NCBI GenBank assembly: GCA_024224995.1
Contig: JAAENB010001277.1
Location: forward strand, 1 to 17,450
Direction of reading: 5' to 3'
Source of the DNA: a bacterium
GTDB taxonomy: Bacteria > Spirochaetota > UBA4802 > UBA5550
Length of the DNA: 17,450 nucleotides
Shown here in pieces: positions 8,655 to 17,402 of this stretch. The position numbers and the translations under genes were made by a program. Positions within the stretch are counted from its first letter, which is position 1. Each line of letters opens with the position of its first letter. The notes below the pieces were generated by a model. It saw only the letters and a program-made list of their open reading frames with translations. It was not told the DNA's origin and ran no database searches.

Positions 8655-9125
8655 ATGTATGATATACTGACTATTCGCAAAAAAAGCCTTTCTGACTGGC
8701 GGGCCGCTGCCGCAGTAATTATGCTTCTCTCTTCGGTTTTGTTAGCCGGGCCTCTGGGGACCATTGCCTGTAAGAGCGGGCAGGTGGAAAGCGGTTATAT
8801 TATTAGAACCGAAAACTGGACCAACGAGAATACCTACCGTCTAAACGCGGCGGCAATGCCTGAGAAAGGGCTTACGGATATTGCCGAGCGGAAAGCAAGC
8901 GCAAAAAGGGCTGCTGTATTAAGTGCGCAAGAACAGATCCTGGAAAAATTCAAAGATTCCTGCAGTGAGGGAGGCGATTATGAGAGTGGAAAGGAAATTA
9001 TTAAAATTGTCAGGAACGGGAAAGTCATTGAAGATATCTATGATAATGAGCAGAACTGTGAAGTCACCTATGAAGTAAAAAGCCGAAAGCTGAAAAAAAA
9101 GGTTCGTATGGCTGCCTTTCGCTAA
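8655..9125 (+). CDS. Array paralogue 1: leaderless membrane-anchored LPP20-like protein
   Basis: A 156-residue protein. After MYDILTIRKKSLSDWR comes the hydrophobic segment (about 16-33, AAAAVIMLLSSVLLAGP), Cys 39 in GTIACKSGQ, and an LPP20-like domain: W54-type TENWTNENTYR, then ERKASAKRAAVLSAQEQILEKF and GKVIEDIYDNEQNCEVTYEVK with Cys 135. Compared with the next gene, the block between MY(N/D)-LTI and KKSL, the leader-like domain, is missing, so the N-terminus resembles a plain signal anchor or lipoprotein signal. The loop after EKFK is also shortened (DSCSEGGDYESG) and adds a Cys. ATG 8655 follows a strong GGAGGGGG site; an upstream in-frame GTG at 8613 lies inside the promoter. First gene of the operon, function unknown. 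Confidence 0.82.
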   Translation: MYDILTIRKKSLSDWRAAAAVIMLLSSVLLAGPLGTIACKSGQVESGYIIRTENWTNENTYRLNAAAMPEKGLTDIAERKASAKRAAVLSAQEQILEKFKDSCSEGGDYESGKEIIKIVRNGKVIEDIYDNEQNCEVTYEVKSRKLKKKVRMAAFR

Positions 9126-9151
9126 AAGATTTATTCATTTGGAGGGGAATC

Positions 9152-9886
9152 ATGTATAATAAACTAACCATCGTAGGACCCGAAGCCTCAGACGAAAATG
9201 AAGCCCAGCCCGGAATAAACCGTGTCCATATTGAATCCCTGCTCCTTATGGCAAAATACGACAAGGTTTTTAAACAAAGACTTCTTGAAGAAAGGAAGTT
9301 CGCGCTTGAAGAGTCGGGCATAGAATTCACTCCTGTGGAAAAAATGCTCCTTATGAATATCGGCAGGGAAAAGCTCTTGCAGACTATTGACGAGTTTACG
9401 GTTCCCGGTATTAACAAAAAAAGCCTTCCCAACTGGCGGGCCGCTGCCGCGGTTATTATGCTTCTTTCGTCGGTTTTGATTGCCGGGCCTCTCTCCACCA
9501 CTGCCTGCCGGAGCGGGCAGGTGGAAACAAAGGAAATGAAAAACAGGGGCTGGGTTGATGAGAATACCTATCGTTGGCAAACTGCGGGTTCTCCCAAACG
9601 AGGACTTACGGATATTGCTGAACGGAAAACAACGGCGAAATTGGCTGCCGTATTAAACGCCCAGTACACTATCATTGAGAAATTCAAAGGAGCCCGTCTT
9701 GAGGGAGCCGCGGGAATGCTGGACATTAGTGATGAGGATTTTAAGCGGGGTGAAGAACTTAAAAAAATTGCTAAAAACGGAACGGTCATAAAAGAAACCT
9801 ATGACAATGAACAAAACTGTGAAGTCATTTATGAAGTAAAAAGCCCGAAATTAAAACGGAAGATTTATAATGCTGCTTTTCGCTAA
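9152..9886 (+). CDS. Array paralogue 2: NHLP-like leader, membrane segment, LPP20-like domain
   Basis: A 244-residue protein and a good type member of the family. The N-terminal extension MYNKLTIVGPEASDENE is shared only with paralogue 3. Residues 24-85 form the leader-like domain: RVHIESLLLMAKYD, FKQRLLEERKFALEESGIEF, VEKMLLMNIGREKLLQTIDEF. This fits the NHLP/Os1348 pattern of D-x-x-F-x-x-x-L-L-x-(D/E)-x-x-x-A-L-x-x-(S/A)-G-I. A hydrophobic helix follows (96-113), then Cys 119 in STTACRSGQVE. The LPP20-like part has ERKTTAKLAAVLNAQYTIIEKFKGARLEGAAGM and a tail with Cys 223 in EQNCEVIYEVK. The inferred topology is leader inside and LPP20-like domain outside. Gap of 26 bp to each neighbour; ribosome site TTTGGAGGGG. 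Confidence 0.82.
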   Translation: MYNKLTIVGPEASDENEAQPGINRVHIESLLLMAKYDKVFKQRLLEERKFALEESGIEFTPVEKMLLMNIGREKLLQTIDEFTVPGINKKSLPNWRAAAAVIMLLSSVLIAGPLSTTACRSGQVETKEMKNRGWVDENTYRWQTAGSPKRGLTDIAERKTTAKLAAVLNAQYTIIEKFKGARLEGAAGMLDISDEDFKRGEELKKIAKNGTVIKETYDNEQNCEVIYEVKSPKLKRKIYNAAFR

Positions 9887-9912
9887 AAGATTTATTTATT
9901 TGGAGGGGAATC

Positions 9913-10650
9913 ATGTATAATAAACTAACCATCGTAGGACCCGAAGCCTCAGACGAAAACGAATCCCGGCCCGGAATAAACCGTGTCCACATTGAATCCC
10001 TGCTCCTTATGGCAAAATACGACAATATTTTTAAACAAAAACTTCTTGAAGAACGGGAGTCGGCGCTTGAGGAATCGGGCATTGAATTTACTCCCGTGGA
10101 GAAAATGCTCCTTATGAATATTGGCAGGGAGAAGCTCCTGCAGACCATTGACGAATTTACGGTTCCCGGTATTAACAAAAAGAGCCTTTCCAACTGGCGT
10201 ACCGCTGCCGCGGTAATTATGCTTCTCTCTTCGGTTTTAATTGTGGGGCCTCTTAGTACCACTGCCTGCCGGAGCGAACAGGTGAAAAGCGGTGAGGTTA
10301 TGGTTACTGACGGCTGGGTCGATGATGATACGTTTCGCTGGACCGCTGCCGGTATGCCCAAACGAGGGCTTACGGATATTGCCGAGCGGAAAGCAACAGC
10401 GAAAAGGGTCGCGATTTTAAACTCGCAATACACAATCCTTGAAAAGTTTAAGGGAGCCCGCATTGAAGGAGCCGGGGGAATGGCTACTTTTTATGAGGAG
10501 GATTATACGAGAGGGCGGGAAATTATACAAACTGTTAAAAAAGGAAAGGTCGTAAAAGAGACTTATGATAAGGAACAAAACTGTGAAGTTGTTTTTGAAG
10601 TAAAGAGTCCGAAATTGAAAAAAAAGATTTTTGAGGCTGCTTTTCGTTAG
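9913..10650 (+). CDS. Array paralogue 3: close duplicate of paralogue 2
   Basis: A 245-residue sister of the preceding gene, 761 bp downstream of its start. The spacer, the ribosome site and the first 45 or so codons are nearly identical, which marks a recent tandem duplication. The leader-like domain reads FKQKLLEERESALEESGIEF and VEKMLLMNIGREKLLQTIDEF. The hydrophobic segment ends IVGP, and Cys 119 sits in TTACRSEQVKSGEV, where Glu and Lys replace the usual Gly and Glu of RSGQVES. The variable loop TFYEEDYTRGREIIQTVKK matches the DYxRG type of paralogues 1, 2 and 5. The tail ends EVKSPKLKKKIFEAAFR with Cys 224. Confidence 0.82.
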   Translation: MYNKLTIVGPEASDENESRPGINRVHIESLLLMAKYDNIFKQKLLEERESALEESGIEFTPVEKMLLMNIGREKLLQTIDEFTVPGINKKSLSNWRTAAAVIMLLSSVLIVGPLSTTACRSEQVKSGEVMVTDGWVDDDTFRWTAAGMPKRGLTDIAERKATAKRVAILNSQYTILEKFKGARIEGAGGMATFYEEDYTRGREIIQTVKKGKVVKETYDKEQNCEVVFEVKSPKLKKKIFEAAFR

Positions 10651-10680
10651 TCACGGGACTACCAGGAATTTGGGGGACAT

Positions 10681-11358
10681 ATGAATAACAAAATTAACAT
10701 TGAGTCATTGCTTCTTATGGCAAAGTACGATGATAAATTTAAAAAAGATCTCCTTGCTAACAGGGAAGCAGCTCTTAAGGAATCGGGCATCCCGTTTACC
10801 CCGGGCGAGCTCATCCTTTTGTCTGGGATCGACAGGGGAAAACTGGAACAGACCATTGATGAGTTTTCTGTTCCCGGTATCACCCAAAAGAGCCTTCCCA
10901 ACTGGCGGGCTGCTGCCGCGGTGATACTGCTCCTGGCGTCGGTTTTGTTTTCCGGGCCTTATTGCAGGGCTACGGGCAGGAGCGGGCAGGTTGAAAGCGG
11001 AGAGGAAATGCGGACCGAAGGCTGGATTGATGGGGATACCTATCGTCTGAGCTCGTCGTCCGCTCCTCCAAAACGTTTTACGGATATTGCCAGGCGGAAA
11101 GAAAGTGCAAAAAGGGTCGCCATATTGAACGCGCAATACCAGATCCTGGAAAAATTCAAAGGAAGCCGTATTGAGGGAGCTGCGGGAATGTCCGATTTTG
11201 ATATGGGAGGTATGGCCCAGGCTCAAGAGGTAATGGGTTATGTAAAAGGTGGGAAGGTCATCAAAGAAACATATGACAAGGAACAGAACTGTGAGATCCT
11301 TTATGAAGTAAAAGCCCCGAAGTTGAAACGGTTGGTTAATAGTGCTACTTTTAGATAG
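10681..11358 (+). CDS. Array paralogue 4: short N-terminus, Cys in GPYC position
   Basis: A 225-residue member that begins directly with the leader-like domain, MNNKINIESLLLMAKYDDKF, and then RLP-free KKDLLANREAALKESGIPFTP and GKLEQTIDEFSVPGITQKS. The hydrophobic segment (76-93) uses VILLLASVLFSGP. Cys 95 lies two residues after Pro (GPYCRATGRSGQVE), four positions earlier than in paralogues 1-3. The loop is of the MxGMAQAQEVMGYV type, and the tail ends KAPKLKRLVNSATFR with Cys 204. From the end of the leader-like domain onward it is almost identical to paralogue 7, while the first 45 residues belong to another subgroup. The ribosome site is GGGGGAC at 10672-10678, close to the start. Confidence 0.82.
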   Translation: MNNKINIESLLLMAKYDDKFKKDLLANREAALKESGIPFTPGELILLSGIDRGKLEQTIDEFSVPGITQKSLPNWRAAAAVILLLASVLFSGPYCRATGRSGQVESGEEMRTEGWIDGDTYRLSSSSAPPKRFTDIARRKESAKRVAILNAQYQILEKFKGSRIEGAAGMSDFDMGGMAQAQEVMGYVKGGKVIKETYDKEQNCEILYEVKAPKLKRLVNSATFR

Positions 11359-11371
11359 CAGGGACTGATAT

Positions 11372-12067
11372 ATGAATAACAAGATCAACATTGAGTCATT
11401 GTTTCTCATGGCAAAGTACGATCCTGAATTTAAAAAAAATTTACTCGCCAACAGGGAACCGGCCCTCAAGGAATCGGGCATCCCGTTTACCCCGGGCGAG
11501 TTAACACTTCTGGCAGGGATCGACAGGGGAAAACTGGAACAGACCATTGATGAGTTTTCTGTTCCCGGAATCACCAAAAAGAGCCTTCCCAATTGGCGTG
11601 CCGCTGCCGCGGTAATAATGCTCCTGGCATCGGTTTTGTTTTCCGGGCCTTTTTGCAGGGCTACGGGCAGGAGCGGGCAGGTTGAAAGCGGGGATGAAAT
11701 GCGGACCGAAGGCTGGGTCAATGGAGATACCTATCGTCTTTATGCAGCGGGATTGCCCAACAGGGGAGTTGCGGGTATTGCCGGGCGGAAAGCGTCAGCA
11801 AAAAGCGCGGCGATATTAAACGCGCAATACCAGATCCTGGAGAAATTCAAAGGAACCCGCATTGAGGGAGCCGGAGGAATGGCAGACTATGGCAGGGTCT
11901 ATGGTGAAGCTGATTATAAGAGGGGACGGGAAATTAAGAACATTGTCAAAAGCGGGAAGGTAATTAAAGAAACCTATGACAATGAACAGAATTGCGAGAT
12001 CATTTATGAAGTAAAAGGTTCTAAGTTGAAAAAAAGGATTCGCGATACTGTTTTTTATTATGATTAA
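11372..12067 (+). CDS. Array paralogue 5: GPFC type with DYxRG loop
   Basis: A 231-residue member starting 13 bp after the previous stop, with only a weak ribosome site (AGGGA, 11360-11364), so translation is probably coupled to its neighbour. The leader-like domain is MNNKINIESLFLMAKYDPEF ... LLANREPALKESGIPFTPGELTLL. The membrane segment VIMLLASVLFSGP leads to Cys 95 in PFCRATGRSGQVESG. The LPP20-like part has GRKASAKSAAILNAQYQILEKFKGTRIEGAGGM. It has the longest loop of the DYxRG class (ADYGRVYGEADYKRGREIK). The tail, KGSKLKKRIRDTVFYYD with Cys 208, is unlike both common tails. Confidence 0.82.
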   Translation: MNNKINIESLFLMAKYDPEFKKNLLANREPALKESGIPFTPGELTLLAGIDRGKLEQTIDEFSVPGITKKSLPNWRAAAAVIMLLASVLFSGPFCRATGRSGQVESGDEMRTEGWVNGDTYRLYAAGLPNRGVAGIAGRKASAKSAAILNAQYQILEKFKGTRIEGAGGMADYGRVYGEADYKRGREIKNIVKSGKVIKETYDNEQNCEIIYEVKGSKLKKRIRDTVFYYD

Positions 12068-12085
12068 ATGGAGTAGGGAAGATCT

Positions 12086-12757
12086 ATGAATAAAATCAAC
12101 ATTGAGTCTTTGTTTCTCATGGCAAAGTACGATAATGAGTTTAAAAAAGAACTTCTTGAAGATAGGGAAACCGCTCTCCATGAGTCGGGCATCCCGTTTA
12201 CTTCGGGCGAGTTAACGCTTCTGGCTGGGATCAACAGGGAAAAACTGGAACAGACCATTGATGAGTTCTCTGTTCCCGGCATTACCGGGAAGAGCCTTTC
12301 GAATTGGAGGGCCGCTGCCGCAGTGCTTATGCTTCTCGCGTCGGTTTTGATTACGGGGCCCCTGGCTACCACAGCCTGCCGGAGCGGACAGGTGGAAACA
12401 AAGGAAATGATAACCAACGGCTGGGTCGATGAAGATACCTTCCGGGTAACATCCATGGGAGCAGCCAACCAGAGCCTTACCAATATTGTTCAGAGAAAAC
12501 AAACCGCAAAAGAAGCAGCGCTTTTAAACGCGCAATATACTGTTCTGGAAAAATTTAAAGGTTCCCGGCTTGAAGGTGCTGCCGGAATGGCAGAAGTGAA
12601 TGTTACGGGGCTTGCATATGCCAGAGAATACGCGGAAATTGTCAAGAGCGGGAGAATTATTAAAATATCGTATGATAAAGACCATAATTGCGAGATTGTT
12701 TATGAAGTTAAATCTAAGGGATTGAAGAAAAAAGTTCTAATGTCCCCAAATTATTAA
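12086..12757 (+). CDS. Array paralogue 6: short N-terminus combined with ACRSG linker
   Basis: A 223-residue member, the shortest with a full leader-like domain. It begins MNKINIESLFLMAKYDNEF like paralogues 5 and 8, but continues KELLEDRETALHESGIPF like paralogues 7 and 9-11. The segment VLMLLASVLITGP is followed by LATTACRSGQVETKEM with Cys 98. The LPP20-like part has QRKQTAKEAALLNAQYTVLEKFKGSRLEGAAGMAE, loop VNVTGLAYAREYAEIVKSG, and the first tail of the xxPNY class (KSKGLKKKVLMSPNY, Cys 202). GGAG at 12070-12073 is the likely ribosome site. It is followed by the largest gap in the array (95 bp), which contains a dispersed repeat. Confidence 0.82.
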   Translation: MNKINIESLFLMAKYDNEFKKELLEDRETALHESGIPFTSGELTLLAGINREKLEQTIDEFSVPGITGKSLSNWRAAAAVLMLLASVLITGPLATTACRSGQVETKEMITNGWVDEDTFRVTSMGAANQSLTNIVQRKQTAKEAALLNAQYTVLEKFKGSRLEGAAGMAEVNVTGLAYAREYAEIVKSGRIIKISYDKDHNCEIVYEVKSKGLKKKVLMSPNY

Positions 12758-12758
12758 G

Positions 12759-12840
12759 AGGGAAATAATACAGAAGAAACTCGATACTATTGCGAGCTGC
12801 ATCCAGGCCCGCGCACAAGCAAAATCAAGTTTCTTAAGAG
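12759..12840. repeat. Copy of a dispersed intergenic repeat inside the array
   Basis: This gap carries ATTGCGAGCTGCATC at 12789-12803, found again at 17383-17397, and AGTTTCTTAAGAG at 12828-12840, found again at 17323-17335. AGAAACT near 12775 is the reverse complement of AGTTTCT at 12828, so the ends can pair. Both blocks are shared with the stretch after the array, but in the opposite order. It looks like a short non-coding repeat inserted between paralogues 6 and 7. Confidence 0.65.
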
Positions 12841-12852
12841 CAAGGAGGAGTT

Positions 12853-13551
12853 ATGAAGGATAGATATCGAGTAGAAACCAAGCGTGTTCACATAGAATCC
12901 CTGTTCCTTATGGCCAGGTATGATAGTGAATTTAAAGAACAACTTCTTGAAGACAGGGAAACCGCTCTTCATGATTCGGGCATCCCGTTTACCCCGGGCG
13001 AGGTGATGCTTTTGTCTGGGATCGACAGGGGAAAACTGGAACAGACCATTGATGAGTTCTCTGTTCCCGGCATCACCCAAAAGAGCCTTCCCAACTGGCG
13101 GGCAGCTGCCGCGGTGATACTGCTCCTGGCGTCGGTTTTGTTTTCCGGGCCTTATTGCAGGGCTACCGGCAGGAGCGGGCAGGTTGAAAGCGGAGAGGAA
13201 ATGCGGACCGAAGGCTGGATTGATGGGGATACCTATCGTCTGAGCTCGTCGTCCGCTCCTCCCAAACGTTTTACGGATATTGCCAGGCGGAAAGCAGCAG
13301 CAAAAAGGGCCGCCATATTAAACGCCCAATACCATATCCTGGAAAAGTTTAAAGGAACCCGTATTGAAGGTGCCGCGGGAATGGCTGATTACAATATGAC
13401 AGGTATGGCCCATGCTCAAGAGGTAGTGGGTTATGTAAAAAACGGGAAGGTAATCAAAGAAACATATGACAAAGAACAGAACTGTGAGATCCTTTATGAA
13501 GTAAAAGCCCCGAAGTTGAAACGATTGGTTAATAGCGCTGAATTTAGGTAG
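12853..13551 (+). CDS. Array paralogue 7: near-identical to paralogue 4 after the leader
   Basis: A 232-residue hybrid. The N-terminus MKDRYRVETKRVHIESLFLM with ARYDSEFKEQLLEDRETALHDSGIPF belongs to the KRVHIES subgroup of paralogues 9-11. From GIDRGKLEQTIDEF on it follows paralogue 4 almost base for base: VILLLASVLFSGP, Cys 102 in PYCRATGRSGQVESGEEM, IDGDTYRLSSSSAPPKRF and the tail KAPKLKRLVNSAEFR with Cys 211. The few differences fall in the AKR-AAILN helix (AAAKRA for ESAKRV) and the loop. AAGGAGG at 12842-12847 is a strong ribosome site, better than those of paralogues 4-6. Confidence 0.82.
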   Translation: MKDRYRVETKRVHIESLFLMARYDSEFKEQLLEDRETALHDSGIPFTPGEVMLLSGIDRGKLEQTIDEFSVPGITQKSLPNWRAAAAVILLLASVLFSGPYCRATGRSGQVESGEEMRTEGWIDGDTYRLSSSSAPPKRFTDIARRKAAAKRAAILNAQYHILEKFKGTRIEGAAGMADYNMTGMAHAQEVVGYVKNGKVIKETYDKEQNCEILYEVKAPKLKRLVNSAEFR

Positions 13552-13567
13552 CAGGGAATGGATACAA

Positions 13568-14272
13568 ATGAATAAAATCAACATTGAATCATTGTTTCTC
13601 ATGGCAAAGTACGATCCTGAATTTAAAAAAGATCTCCTTGGCAACAGGGAACCGGCCCTTAAAGAATCGGGGATTCCGTTTACCCCGGGAGAGTTAACGC
13701 TTCTGTCGGGGATCGACAGGAAAAAGCTTGAACAGACCATTGATGAATTCTCCGTTCCCGGCATTAGCAAAAAGAGCCTTCCCAACTGGCGCGCTGCCGC
13801 TGCTGTAATGATGCTCCTTGCCTCGGTCCTTTTCGCGGGCCCGTTTTGTAAATCAACAGGTAAACCGGGACAGGTGGAAACAAAAGAAATGAAAACCGAT
13901 GGCTGGGTCGATGAAAATACCTTCCGGGTAACAGCCGTGGGTAGAGCCCAACAGAGATATACCAATATTATTCAAAGAAGAGAAAGCGCAAAGAGAGACG
14001 CAATTCTTAATGCTCAAAGCATTATTCATGATAAATTTAACCCTCCTCCCATCCGCCTGGAAGGAGCCGCAGCAATGGCTTATTACGAAATAACCGGATC
14101 ATTCCTTTCCCAGGAATGCCGGGGAGCAATAAGGGGGGGGGCAGTTATTAAAGAACGGTATGATAAAGACCATAATTGTGAGATTGTTTATGAAGTGAAA
14201 ATGAAGGGATTGAAGAAAAAATGCGGCAATGGCTCCACTTTTTTAACTGCAGCAAGGAGGAGTAATGAATGA
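13568..14272 (+). CDS. Array paralogue 8: C-terminally frameshifted member
   Basis: A 234-residue member with the short N-terminus MNKINIESLFLMAKYDPEF and LLGNREPALKESGIPF. The membrane segment VMMLLASVLFAGP leads to Cys 94 in PFCKSTGKPGQVETKEM, a linker shared with paralogue 11. The LPP20-like part is divergent (NAQSIIHDKFNPPPIRLEGAAAMAYY) and has an additional Cys in SQECRGA. The last residues, KKKCGNGSTFLTAARRSNE, match no sister. In the next frame, the codons at 14229-14246 read M-A-P-L-F-stop, like the MAPNY ends of sisters. One extra A in the run 14216-14221 would explain this; the restored protein would be 225 residues. The extension makes the gene overlap the next start by 8 bp. The expected Cys of EIVYEV is at 204. 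Confidence 0.8.
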   Translation: MNKINIESLFLMAKYDPEFKKDLLGNREPALKESGIPFTPGELTLLSGIDRKKLEQTIDEFSVPGISKKSLPNWRAAAAVMMLLASVLFAGPFCKSTGKPGQVETKEMKTDGWVDENTFRVTAVGRAQQRYTNIIQRRESAKRDAILNAQSIIHDKFNPPPIRLEGAAAMAYYEITGSFLSQECRGAIRGGAVIKERYDKDHNCEIVYEVKMKGLKKKCGNGSTFLTAARRSNE

Positions 14273-14945
14273 AACAAAACGTGTTCATATAGAATCCCTG
14301 TTCCTTATGGCCAGGTATGATAGTGAATTTAAACAACAGCTTCTTGAAGACAGGGAAACCGCTCTCCGCGAGTCGGGCATTCCGTTTACTCCAGGCGAGC
14401 TGATGCTCCTGTCGGGGATCGACAGGGAAAAACTGGAACAGACCATTGATGAGTTCTCTATTCCCGGCATCACTAAAAAGAGCCTTCCCAACTGGAGGGC
14501 AGCCGCAGCGGTAATAATGCTCCTCACCTCGGTTTTGTTAGCCGGTCCTCTGGGCACTATTGCCTGCCGGAGCGGACAGGTGGAAACAAAGAAAATGATC
14601 ACCGACGGCTGGGTAGATGAAGATACCATCCGGGTAACGGCCCTGGGAGCGCCAAAACGGGGCCTTACCAATATTTATCAGAAAAAAGCGACAGCGAGAG
14701 AGGCAGCGTTTATAATGGCGCAGTATACTATGCTGGAAAAATTTAAAGGCCCACGGCTTGAAGGTGCCGCCGGCATGGCTGAATTTGGTAGTACGGGAAT
14801 TGCTGTTGGCAAGGAACTCAGGGGAATTGTCAGGGGCGGTTCAATAATTAAAGAGAAGTTTGATGAAGACCAGAATTGCGAGATTGTTTACGAAGTGAAG
14901 CATAAAGGATTAAAGAAAAAAGTAATAAAGTCTCCAATTTATTAA
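14265..14945 (+). CDS. Array paralogue 9: KRVHIES subgroup, GTIAC linker
   Basis: A 226-residue member beginning MNETKRVHIESLFLMARYD, with AAGGAGG at 14254-14260 as ribosome site inside the extended end of paralogue 8. The leader-like domain is FKQQLLEDRETALRESGIPF, GELMLLSGIDREKLEQTIDEF, then SIPGITKKS with Ile for the usual Val. Cys 101 is in PLGTIACRSGQVETKKM, the same linker as paralogue 1. The LPP20-like part has QKKATAREAAFIMAQYTMLEKFKGPRLEGAAGMAEF, loop GSTGIAVGKELRGIVRGG, and tail KHKGLKKKVIKSPIY with Cys 205. The linker from the hydrophobic segment to DEDTIRV is almost identical at DNA level to that of paralogue 10. Confidence 0.82.
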   Translation: MNETKRVHIESLFLMARYDSEFKQQLLEDRETALRESGIPFTPGELMLLSGIDREKLEQTIDEFSIPGITKKSLPNWRAAAAVIMLLTSVLLAGPLGTIACRSGQVETKKMITDGWVDEDTIRVTALGAPKRGLTNIYQKKATAREAAFIMAQYTMLEKFKGPRLEGAAGMAEFGSTGIAVGKELRGIVRGGSIIKEKFDEDQNCEIVYEVKHKGLKKKVIKSPIY

Positions 14946-14989
14946 GGCAGGCAGCGAGGAATTAAAAGGACGAATTAAAAGGAGGATTT

Positions 14990-15685
14990 ATGAAGGATGG
15001 ATCTCAAAGCGACAGCAAGCGTGTTCACATAGAATCCCTGTTCCTTATGGCCAGGTATGACAGCGAATTTAAACAGCAGCTTCTTGAAGACAGGGAAACC
15101 GCTCTCCGTGAGTCGGGCATCCCGTTTACTCCGGGCGAGGTGATGCTTCTGGAAGGGATCAACAGGGAAAAACTTGAACAGACCATTGAAGAATTCTCTG
15201 TTCCCGGCATCACAAAGAAGAGCCTTTCCAATTGGAGGGCAGCCGCAGCAGTGATACTGCTTCTCACCTCGGTTTTGTTCGCCGGGCCTCTGGGCACCAC
15301 TGCCTGCCGGAGCGGACAGGTGGAAACAAAGAAAATGATCACCGACGGCTGGGTAGATGAAGATACCATCCGGGTAAAGGTCATGGCAGAACCCAAACGG
15401 GGCCTTACCAATATTATTCAGAGAAAAGGAACCGCGAAAGAAGCCGCTCTTATAATGGCGCAAAAAAGAGTTCTTGAAAAATTCACCCCTCCCCGGCTTG
15501 AAGGTGCTGCCGGCATGGCTGAATTTAATAGTACGGGAATTGCTGTTGCCCGGGAACTCGGGGGATTTGTTAAGGGCGGGACAATTATTAAAGAAAAGTA
15601 TGATAAAGACCAGAATTGTGAGATTGTTTATGAAGTGAAAATGAGGGGATTGAAGAAAAGAGTGATGATGGCTCCAAATTATTAA
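14990..15685 (+). CDS. Array paralogue 10: KRVHIES subgroup, GTTAC linker
   Basis: A 231-residue member with N-terminus MKDGSQSDSKRVHIESLFLM. A 12-bp direct repeat (GAATTAAAAGGA at 14959-14970 and 14972-14983) in the 44-bp gap in front duplicates a ribosome-like site; the AAAAGGAGG ending at 14985 lies at proper distance from ATG 14990. The leader-like domain differs by MLLEGINREKLEQTIEEF. The hydrophobic segment VILLLTSVLFAGP is followed by Cys 106 in LGTTACRSGQVETKKM. The LPP20-like part has RKGTAKEAALIMAQKRVLEKFTPPRLEGAAGMAEF and loop NSTGIAVARELGGFVKGG. The tail is KMRGLKKRVMMAPNY with Cys 210. Confidence 0.82.
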   Translation: MKDGSQSDSKRVHIESLFLMARYDSEFKQQLLEDRETALRESGIPFTPGEVMLLEGINREKLEQTIEEFSVPGITKKSLSNWRAAAAVILLLTSVLFAGPLGTTACRSGQVETKKMITDGWVDEDTIRVKVMAEPKRGLTNIIQRKGTAKEAALIMAQKRVLEKFTPPRLEGAAGMAEFNSTGIAVARELGGFVKGGTIIKEKYDKDQNCEIVYEVKMRGLKKRVMMAPNY

Positions 15686-15703
15686 GAGCTGCAAGGAGGA
15701 ATT

Positions 15704-16390
15704 ATGAGTGATAGCAAACGTGTCCACATAGAATCCCTGTTCCTTATGGCCAGGTATGATAGCGAATTTAAACAACAGCTTCTTGAAGACAGGGAAACCG
15801 CTCTCAGTGAGTCGGGCATTCCGTTTAGTCCGGGCGAGCTGATGCTCCTGTCGGCGATTGACAGGGAAAAACTGGAACAGACTATTGATGAATTCTCTGT
15901 TCCCGGTATTACCGGGAAGAGCCTTCCTAACTGGCGCGCTGCCGCAGCTGTAATAATGCTCCTCACCTCGGTCCTTTTCGCGGGCCCGTTTTGCAGATCA
16001 ACAGGTAAACCGGGGCAGGCGGCAACGAAGGAAATGAAGACCGAGGGCTGGGTTGATGAAGATACTTTTCGGGTAACAGCCCTGGGAGTACCCAAACAGG
16101 GCCTTACCAATATTTATCAGAGAAAAGGAACCGCGAAAGAAGCCGCTCTCATAATGGCGCAAAAGAGAATTCTGGAAAAGTTTCAAGGCGTCCAAATGGA
16201 GTGGATGGCAGGAGCCGGATCAATGGGGGATGATGGATCGTCAATGTCGGTATATAAAGAATTTGGCGGCATGGTTAAAGGAGGAACTATTGTTAAAGAA
16301 ACGTATGACAAAGAGCAAAACTGCGAGATTATTTACGAAGTAAAAGCCCGTGGGTTAAAAAAGAGAGTTTTGGGTTTGGTTAATTATTAA
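15704..16390 (+). CDS. Array paralogue 11: GPFC linker with rearranged loop
   Basis: A 228-residue member, MSDSKRVHIESLFLMARYD, with CAAGGAGG before the start. The leader-like domain reads ETALSESGIPFSPGELMLLS and AIDREKLEQTIDEFSVPGIT. Cys 97 sits in PFCRSTGKPGQAATKEM; this linker is otherwise seen in paralogue 8, and GQAATK replaces GQVETK. The helix RKGTAKEAALIMAQKRILEKF equals that of paralogue 10, but the following RIEGAAGMAE motif is replaced by QGVQMEWMAGAGSMGDDGSS. The loop is thus the most divergent in the array. The tail is KARGLKKRVLGLVNY with Cys 207. Confidence 0.82.
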   Translation: MSDSKRVHIESLFLMARYDSEFKQQLLEDRETALSESGIPFSPGELMLLSAIDREKLEQTIDEFSVPGITGKSLPNWRAAAAVIMLLTSVLFAGPFCRSTGKPGQAATKEMKTEGWVDEDTFRVTALGVPKQGLTNIYQRKGTAKEAALIMAQKRILEKFQGVQMEWMAGAGSMGDDGSSMSVYKEFGGMVKGGTIVKETYDKEQNCEIIYEVKARGLKKRVLGLVNY

Positions 16391-16402
16391 AGGAGGTATT
16401 AT

Positions 16403-17110
16403 ATGAAGGAAAAAGAAATATTTCCGGAGGCGGGAAGCTCATTAACAAGCCGTGTCCACATTGAGTCCCTGCTGCTTATGGCAAAGTATGATGATGAATT
16501 CAGGGAAGAGCTTCTTGCAAGCAGGGAAGAATCGCTTAAAAAATCGGGCATACCCTTTGCTGCCGCTGAGATAGTGCTTCTTTCCGGCATCGGCAGGGAG
16601 AAGCTGGAACGAACCATTAATGAGTTTGCCGTTCCCGGCATCACCCAAAAAAGCCTCCCCGGCTGGCGTACGGCCGCCGGCGTAATTATGCTTCTTACCT
16701 CGGTTCTCTTTGCCGGGCCTGTATGCAGAACTGCCGGGACAAGCGGACAGGTGGAAAGCGGGGACGTGATGCGCTCCGAAGGCTGGATAGATGAGAATAC
16801 CTTTCGGGCGAGCGCAGTGGGAATGCCCAATAGAGGGGTGGTAAACATTACTCAAAAGAAAGCCACTGCAAAAAGGGCCGCCACTATGATGGCTCAGAAG
16901 CGTGTCATTGAAAGATTTATTGGAAGCCGTATTGAGGGAGCCGCCGGAATGGCTGAATACGACAGTCCCGCACCGGCCATAGTAAAGGAATTCGGCGGTA
17001 TTGTAAAAAGCGGTAAGGTCATCAAGGAAACATACGATAATGAATATAACTGCGAGATTATTTATGAAGTCAAAAGCCCGGGATTGAGAAAAAGACTTCA
17101 GAATTTTTAA
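16403..17110 (+). CDS. Array paralogue 12: most divergent full-length member
   Basis: A 235-residue member, last in the operon. Its N-terminus MKEKEIFPEAGSSLTSRVHI is unique. The leader-like domain has REELLASREESLKKSGIPF and AAAEIVLLSGIGREKLERTINEF, so the FTPGE of its sisters is FAAAE. SLPGWRTAAGVIMLLTSVLFAGP replaces the otherwise invariant NWRAAAA. Cys 108 lies in PVCRTAGTSGQVESGDVM. The LPP20-like part has QKKATAKRAATMMAQKRVIERFIGSRIEGAAGMAEY, loop DSPAPAIVKEFGGIVKSG, and tail KSPGLRKRLQNF with Cys 217. AGGAGG at 16391-16396, 6 bases before ATG, is an excellent ribosome site. Confidence 0.82.
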   Translation: MKEKEIFPEAGSSLTSRVHIESLLLMAKYDDEFREELLASREESLKKSGIPFAAAEIVLLSGIGREKLERTINEFAVPGITQKSLPGWRTAAGVIMLLTSVLFAGPVCRTAGTSGQVESGDVMRSEGWIDENTFRASAVGMPNRGVVNITQKKATAKRAATMMAQKRVIERFIGSRIEGAAGMAEYDSPAPAIVKEFGGIVKSGKVIKETYDNEYNCEIIYEVKSPGLRKRLQNF

Positions 17111-17322: not shown

Positions 17323-17402
17323 AGTTTCTTAAGAGTGCGGACCCCACTGAGCGGGGAAAAAATACGTCAGAAACTAAATAATATTGCGAGCTGCATCTGG
17401 CC
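17323..17402. repeat. Second copy of the dispersed intergenic repeat
   Basis: AGTTTCTTAAGAG (17323-17335), GGGGAAAAAATACGTCAGAAACT near 17353-17375 in part, and ATTGCGAGCTGCATC (17383-17397) match blocks in the gap between paralogues 6 and 7. A weaker third copy of the GGGAAAAA...CAGAAACT part lies at about 17150-17172. The order of the blocks is reversed relative to the copy at 12759-12840. Confidence 0.6.

Follow-up and report, generated by a model that had tools for sequence, protein, structure and literature searches.

Leaders of ribosomally synthesised and post-translationally modified peptides (RiPPs) steer enzymes to short core peptides, and RiPPs exported through the Sec pathway, such as the bufferins, are already known. 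The available parts of two papers report NHLP leaders with radical S-adenosylmethionine (SAM) enzymes (PMC3023750, PMC4289311), and the NHLP/Nif11 precursors (TIGR03793; Haft 2010, PMC2887384) have a long nitrile-hydratase-related leader, cluster with a maturation enzyme, and join a conserved leader to a more variable C-terminal part. The same traits were seen in the system described here, which comprises an array of twelve paralogous genes at 8655-17110 on the + strand of a 17,450-nucleotide stretch of Spirochaetota DNA (contig JAAENB010001277.1, hereafter the window) and its relatives in other genomes. The order in 11/12 of the encoded proteins was a leader domain (about 72 residues), a hydrophobic segment and a C-terminal domain (about 115 residues), and in the relatives the leader gene adjoined a gene for a cobalamin (B12)-binding radical SAM enzyme.

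The twelve open reading frames (ORFs) of the array were collinear and free of stops, with intergenic spacings of 12-95 bases and one 8-base overlap (genes 8 and 9). A GGAGG-like site was present 5' of most of the genes and was weaker at genes 5, 6 and 8. Because of the short gaps and these sites, the array is likely operon-like. A tandem array of twelve genes with a leader-like domain in eleven had been proposed in a first-pass annotation of this DNA, and both the ORFs and the alignment bore this out; the alignment also reproduced the leader consensus quoted there.

The assignment of the N-terminal 72 or so residues to the NHLP leader clan, made earlier from the letters alone, was supported by profiles and by the predicted fold. 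NF038399 (Os1348 NHLP clan) matched 9/9 of the leader-bearing paralogues scanned (E 5.7e-3 to 6.4e-9), no match reaching the curated 40-bit cut-off (the best scored 35.8 bits, E 6.4e-9), and TIGR03793 matched the window leaders only at E 0.04-0.11. A leader profile compared with the PDB found Os1348 and nitrile hydratase alpha, and the predicted leader domain of gene 9 superposed on Os1348 (6lk7), so that profile and fold agreed on homology to Os1348 and nitrile hydratase alpha. The window leaders lack a terminal GG/GA cleavage pair and close with VPGITKKSLPNW or similar residues; a GA pair in three Desulfobacterota relatives (G705, G795 and G796) sits within the start of the hydrophobic segment. 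A protein-database search with the leader region of gene 9, restricted by exact words, returned 12 proteins at E<=1, namely ten array members, P0008 and P0013.

A hydrophobic segment followed the leader in 11/11 leader-bearing window genes and in 8/8 other leader proteins computed. Its Kyte-Doolittle maximum in the 11 window proteins was 2.1-2.4 over 17 residues, and the 15 residues preceding it carried 2 to 3 net positive charges. Among five Desulfobacterota leader proteins, the segment ended in an AxA-type site in three and in a lipobox in one. What follows it is not a short C-terminal core peptide; the cargo is predicted to fold into a domain of some 115 residues or more. The earlier description of this domain as LPP20/FlgT-N-like held for the predicted structure, which gave an Lpp20/FlgT-like match across the whole cargo domain, and failed for Pfam. 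PF02169 (LPP20) gave no match at E<=10 in the 10/12 window proteins scanned (genes 8 and 10 left out), under program filters that discard most matches above about 0.1, and none at E<=1 in three stand-alone relatives. The LipL21 model (NF033162) matched 4/10 window proteins below its cut-off of 200 bits (best 20.5 bits, E 3.4e-4), and scored 25.2 bits in a stand-alone relative. The cargo was swapped among relatives, being LipL21/Lpp20-like, T2SSG + BiPBP_C (G013) or a predicted beta-sandwich (G705). Between leader-bearing and stand-alone cargo the most different residues were I137 (13/15 vs 1/40) and K141 (13/15 vs 5/40), neither of which was convincing as a modification site.

A search with a leader profile (A3, built from the 11 window leaders and those of P0008 and P0013) matched 3/392 Spirochaetota genomes at E<=0.01: G218 (4e-27), G172 (2e-26) and G013 (5e-4). 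G218 and G172 contained the same fusion as the window, while the G013 protein was a leader with T2SSG and BiPBP_C. In each of these genomes the following gene on that strand began 0-42 bases past the leader gene and encoded a protein of about 475 residues with B12-binding and Radical_SAM domains. The G172 enzyme showed 49% and 66% identity to the other two. A search with this enzyme in the 392 genomes, with the four best candidates scored per genome, gave three positives at E<=1e-90, the identical set. The chance of this coincidence is about 1e-7 by our own arithmetic assuming independent genomes, and is truly higher because G172 and G218 belong to one order. The enzyme occurred in 2/46 genomes of that order (all candidates scored) and in 1/8 of the class of G013, sets that overlap the 392. 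In Desulfobacterota, it was present in G705, G795 and G798, with a leader gene immediately 5' in each; in G798 a pair of leader-cargo genes preceded a single enzyme gene (L065:4681-8738), a small version of the window's substrate amplification. A leader gene thus directly preceded the enzyme gene in 6/6 enzyme-bearing genomes examined, and the enzyme was the next gene in 6/7 genomes with a leader-cargo gene (3 Spirochaetota, 4 Desulfobacterota), a count that omits two weak leader matches, G801 and G779 (E 0.003). The first-pass idea of a processing enzyme was supported in the relatives, with no enzyme gene inside the 17.45-kb window.

The leader marked out single members of a larger cargo family. 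LipL21-like matches at E<=1e-4 numbered 12 in G172 and 5 in G218, of which one per genome lay at the enzyme locus and bore the leader; among the other 15, 0/6 of those read (three per genome) carried one, and the A3 search found one leader per genome. The best-scoring enzyme model was ApyD (NF050148; E 6e-47 to 2e-42 in the three Spirochaetota enzymes, 1.5e-52 in G705). rSAM_ocin_1, a RiPP C-methyltransferase model, was among the top five matches, and the enzyme also resembled BchE, HpnJ and a lipid-biosynthesis radical SAM model. As all model scores were below cut-off, the reaction was not predicted. The C-terminus of the enzyme is a (C)GAH(S) motif (e.g. L050:9886-11310), with GAH invariant in 30/30 aligned members. 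Its sequence neighbourhood is large, 1074 of the 7993 proteins scored reaching E<=1e-100, and proteins of the wider enzyme family bear names from Eisenbacteria, Dehalococcoidia, Aminicenantes, Planctomycetota, Armatimonadia and Bacteroidales. The Pfam-scanned neighbours of the gene pairs were of other kinds, no dedicated search for a C39 peptidase, YcaO or ABC exporter having been made.

Wider searches gave the following. NF038399 was positive in 14/392 Spirochaetota genomes and in 1/14 control genomes, and 11 of the 14 were not counted as carrying the leader-segment-cargo module. The matches in G134 and G048 were a formate dehydrogenase tail and response regulators, that in G181 was a 69-residue ORF, no leader-segment-cargo protein was present at the loci read in G151, G239 and G274, and the loci of G296, G321, G323, G324 and G374 were not read. 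The G134 domain at the formate dehydrogenase alpha C-terminus scored 48.8 bits with NF038399, over the cut-off, and the C-terminal domain of the response-regulator-like proteins (G134, G048) was weak (E 0.004-0.007 in the genome search; L046 judged by eye). These non-RiPP settings lie on the - strand at L034:1459-3069 and L048:1432-2097 (G134) and L046:1417-2058 (G048). No close relatives of gene 9 were found in genome_contigs, none of A1 and A6 in viral_contigs, and none of the G172 enzyme in plasmids at E<=1e-60. A leader profile (A10) found none in 297 Desulfobacterota genomes at E<=0.001; G705 was most likely not among them, and a blank result of this kind shows little.

The window contig ends 340 bases past the array, and no long ORF was seen in those bases. 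A link between array and enzyme is suggested by P0008 (GY754_08655), a full leader-cargo protein that scored highest of the gene 9 relatives beyond the array itself, and by the enzyme P0089, with 68% identity to the G172 enzyme. The two are probably on one contig, since both are listed on 4401-base contigs.

Mean pairwise protein identity among the 11 leader-bearing genes was 0.74 for the leader, 0.73 for the hydrophobic segment and 0.47-0.58 for stretches of the C-terminal domain. The mean nonsynonymous rate (dN) was 0.18, 0.18 and 0.33-0.50 in the same order. The ratio of means to the synonymous rate (dN/dS) was 0.16, 0.19 and 0.25-0.33, rough values with dS partly saturated and not computable in 7-27 of 55 pairs per region. 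With the lowest dN/dS of the protein, the leader was under the strongest constraint, which is what a recognition tag would be expected to show. Diversification, which the first-pass annotation had suggested for the family, was rejected in the sense of positive selection, as dN/dS of 0.16-0.33 in all regions gave no sign of it at this resolution.

The reading favoured here, with slightly better than even confidence, is that the leader recruits the B12-binding radical SAM enzyme, the attached protein is modified and then exported by Sec, and the window holds an amplified substrate family. The leader domain would be bound in the cytoplasm by the dedicated enzyme, which would make a radical modification of the attached protein. 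As a first guess, this may be C-methylation, or some comparable radical alteration, of a residue that lies within the exported domain or immediately ahead of it, because ApyD was the best model and rSAM_ocin_1 was in the top five, scores that do not decide the matter. The signal-peptide-like segment would then direct Sec export, signal peptidase would cleave at the segment or the segment would remain as an anchor, and the Lpp20/LipL21-like cargo would end in the envelope, outside the inner membrane. The array would thereby be an amplified family of such enzyme substrates. Leader homology, predicted fold, the conserved module of leader and segment, cargo swapping and enzyme pairing in relatives back this reading as observations. 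What we infer is that enzyme and leader physically recognise each other, what the chemistry is and which residue it alters, that modification comes ahead of export, and that the window's organism has the enzyme.

Several results weigh against it. No enzyme gene was among the window ORFs scanned or listed, and no cargo residue stood out as a modification site in the alignment comparisons. The enzymes scanned were under the cut-off of every listed model (ApyD 146-179 bits in four enzymes vs 750). Formate dehydrogenase and, weakly, response regulators also carry Os1348-type domains, so that the domain alone is no proof of a RiPP. The Os1348 paper, in its available part, finds no NHLP motif in Os1348 and finds it structurally unlike nitrile hydratases (PMC7726476). 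G796 has a leader-cargo gene (E 4e-34) with no enzyme beside it or in the genome, its best B12-radical-SAM protein reaching E 7.8e-43 against the family profile vs about 1e-248 for true members. A T-I-V-G motif that occurs in leader proteins from G013, G172, G218, G705, G795 and G798 and in window genes 2-3 is absent in window genes 4-12, and in the enzyme-less G796 TIVGGRP is altered to TIVDERS. As a docking site for the enzyme the motif was rejected as not required, because it is absent from genes 4-12 and from P0008, probably on the enzyme's contig.

The leader may instead be a cytoplasmic docking module, by which a membrane protein recruits the enzyme to the membrane so that another target (e.g. 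a lipid or other protein) is modified and the cargo is not. The hydrophobic segment behind every leader computed, in the window and elsewhere, fits such a role, as do the enzyme's likeness to BchE, HpnJ and the lipid-biosynthesis model and the unrelated cargo domains without an obvious common target residue. We regard it as unlikely, however, as the adjacency of leader gene and enzyme in 6/6 enzyme loci is the usual RiPP pattern, and the AxA-type and lipobox ends in the Desulfobacterota proteins speak against a permanent anchor there. A related doubt concerns the window itself, where the leader could be a relic in an amplified lipoprotein family, kept as an overlong signal-peptide extension after loss of the enzyme, with nothing modified. 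The window without an enzyme, the leaderless gene 1 and the G796 leader gene without one would suit a relic, and long signal sequences are known in autotransporters, as stated in the available part of PMC2805444. The low leader dN/dS over 11 copies (0.16, the protein's lowest, with dS partly saturated) and the apparent place of P0008 on the enzyme's contig argue the other way, and a relic seems rather improbable.

A general NHLP-fold interaction or dimerisation domain, unlinked to post-translational modification, would accord with the proposal of Os1348 as a stable homodimer (PMC7726476, available part) and with the Os1348-type domains C-terminal on the formate dehydrogenase and, weakly, on response regulators. 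It leaves unexplained why the leader and one radical SAM subfamily turn up together in the same 3/392 genomes, and is considered very unlikely.

All array genes are on the + strand. Gene 1 (8655..9125, ATG at 8655) begins with MYDILTIRKKSL; the leader is absent, and this start leads straight into the hydrophobic segment, which has a TIAC box and is followed by the C-terminal domain. In it MYDILTI is joined in frame, almost directly, to KKSLSDW, where genes 2 and 3 have MYNKLTI, then the leader, then KKSL(P/S)NW. Gene 2 (9152..9886) has a leader with an N-terminal KLTIVGPEAS motif, a signal segment (TTAC) and a LipL21/Lpp20-like domain, and gene 3 (9913..10650) has the same domain order, motif and TTAC. 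The signal segment of gene 4 (10681..11358), between leader and C-terminal domain, is without a lipobox-like Cys. Leader, signal segment and C-terminal domain make up genes 5 (11372..12067), 7 (12853..13551), 8 (13568..14272, overlapping gene 9), 11 (15704..16390) and 12 (16403..17110, the array's last), as well as genes 6 (12086..12757) and 10 (14990..15685), in which the segment has TTAC. Gene 9 (P0001, 14265..14945) encodes the protein used for the structure model; its hydrophobic signal/anchor segment (14481..14567, residues 73-101) ends in TIAC and has net +3 in the 15 preceding residues. An exact 14-base repeat, ATTGCGAGCTGCAT, lies at 12789-12802 (between genes 6 and 7) and 17383-17396 (past gene 12), 2 matches in the window vs 0 expected by chance, and is possibly the edge of a duplicated segment. 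A 99-residue ORF at 1889-2188, which overlaps a second short ORF, encodes a Cache-type sensor domain (dCache_2, sCache_2) and appears to be a piece of a larger or broken sensor gene.

Whole exported proteins may thus be chemically modified in the manner of peptide natural products. We give an even chance to a broader view, that NHLP leader and Sec signal segment form an exchangeable tag by which a single dedicated B12-radical-SAM subfamily receives, ahead of export, folded and exported proteins from unrelated families, the substrate side in the window's organism having grown to at least 11 tagged paralogues. If true, tagging of this sort on entire envelope proteins would extend RiPP chemistry to structural or surface proteins, and bacterial envelopes would be expected to contain hidden modifications made by radical chemistry. 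Natural controls exist within the family: the leaderless gene 1, the leaderless paralogues of the same genome, and the enzyme-less orphan.

Compared with known systems, the cargo shares its fold with the envelope proteins Lpp20 and FlgT and weak sequence similarity with LipL21. To our knowledge, no leader domain is known in LipL21/Lpp20/FlgT-N envelope proteins. NHLP/Nif11 precursors differ in that the window cargo is a predicted folded domain behind a signal-peptide-like segment, and the window leaders end without the GG/GA pair and match TIGR03793 weakly; the words transmembrane, radical SAM, signal peptide and lipoprotein are absent from the main text of Haft 2010 (PMC2887384). Os1348 (Pseudomonas sp. 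Os17; NF038399; PDB 6lk7) has the same domain by profile and predicted fold. According to the available part of its paper, it is a stand-alone protein of 85 residues whose gene opens a predicted bacteriocin cluster that also contains an acetyltransferase gene, and 'radical SAM' is absent from the main text (PMC7726476). No title or abstract was found that describes an NHLP leader, signal segment, folded exported domain and B12-radical-SAM partner together, most subscription papers being outside the scope of this search, which is no proof of absence. ApyD (NF050148; aminopyruvatide) is a radical SAM enzyme that binds B12, as the partner enzyme does, and it works on a ribosomal precursor, as the partner enzyme would. 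The accessible part of PMC10635010 describes it as a RiPP Tyr C-beta methylase that contains a RiPP recognition element (RRE) and has a peptide, ApyA, as substrate, whereas Pfam gave B12-binding and Radical_SAM only on the partner enzymes (the RRE's own models were not applied). Bufferins and other RiPPs modified by MNIO proteins also have precursors with Sec signal peptides, some long and some of lipoprotein type, and their authors discuss the need to delay export until modification is complete (available part of PMC12452194). In these the signal peptide takes the leader's place and an MNIO protein serves as the enzyme (same source), whereas in the present system the signal segment comes after an NHLP-type leader, with a B12-radical-SAM enzyme as partner.

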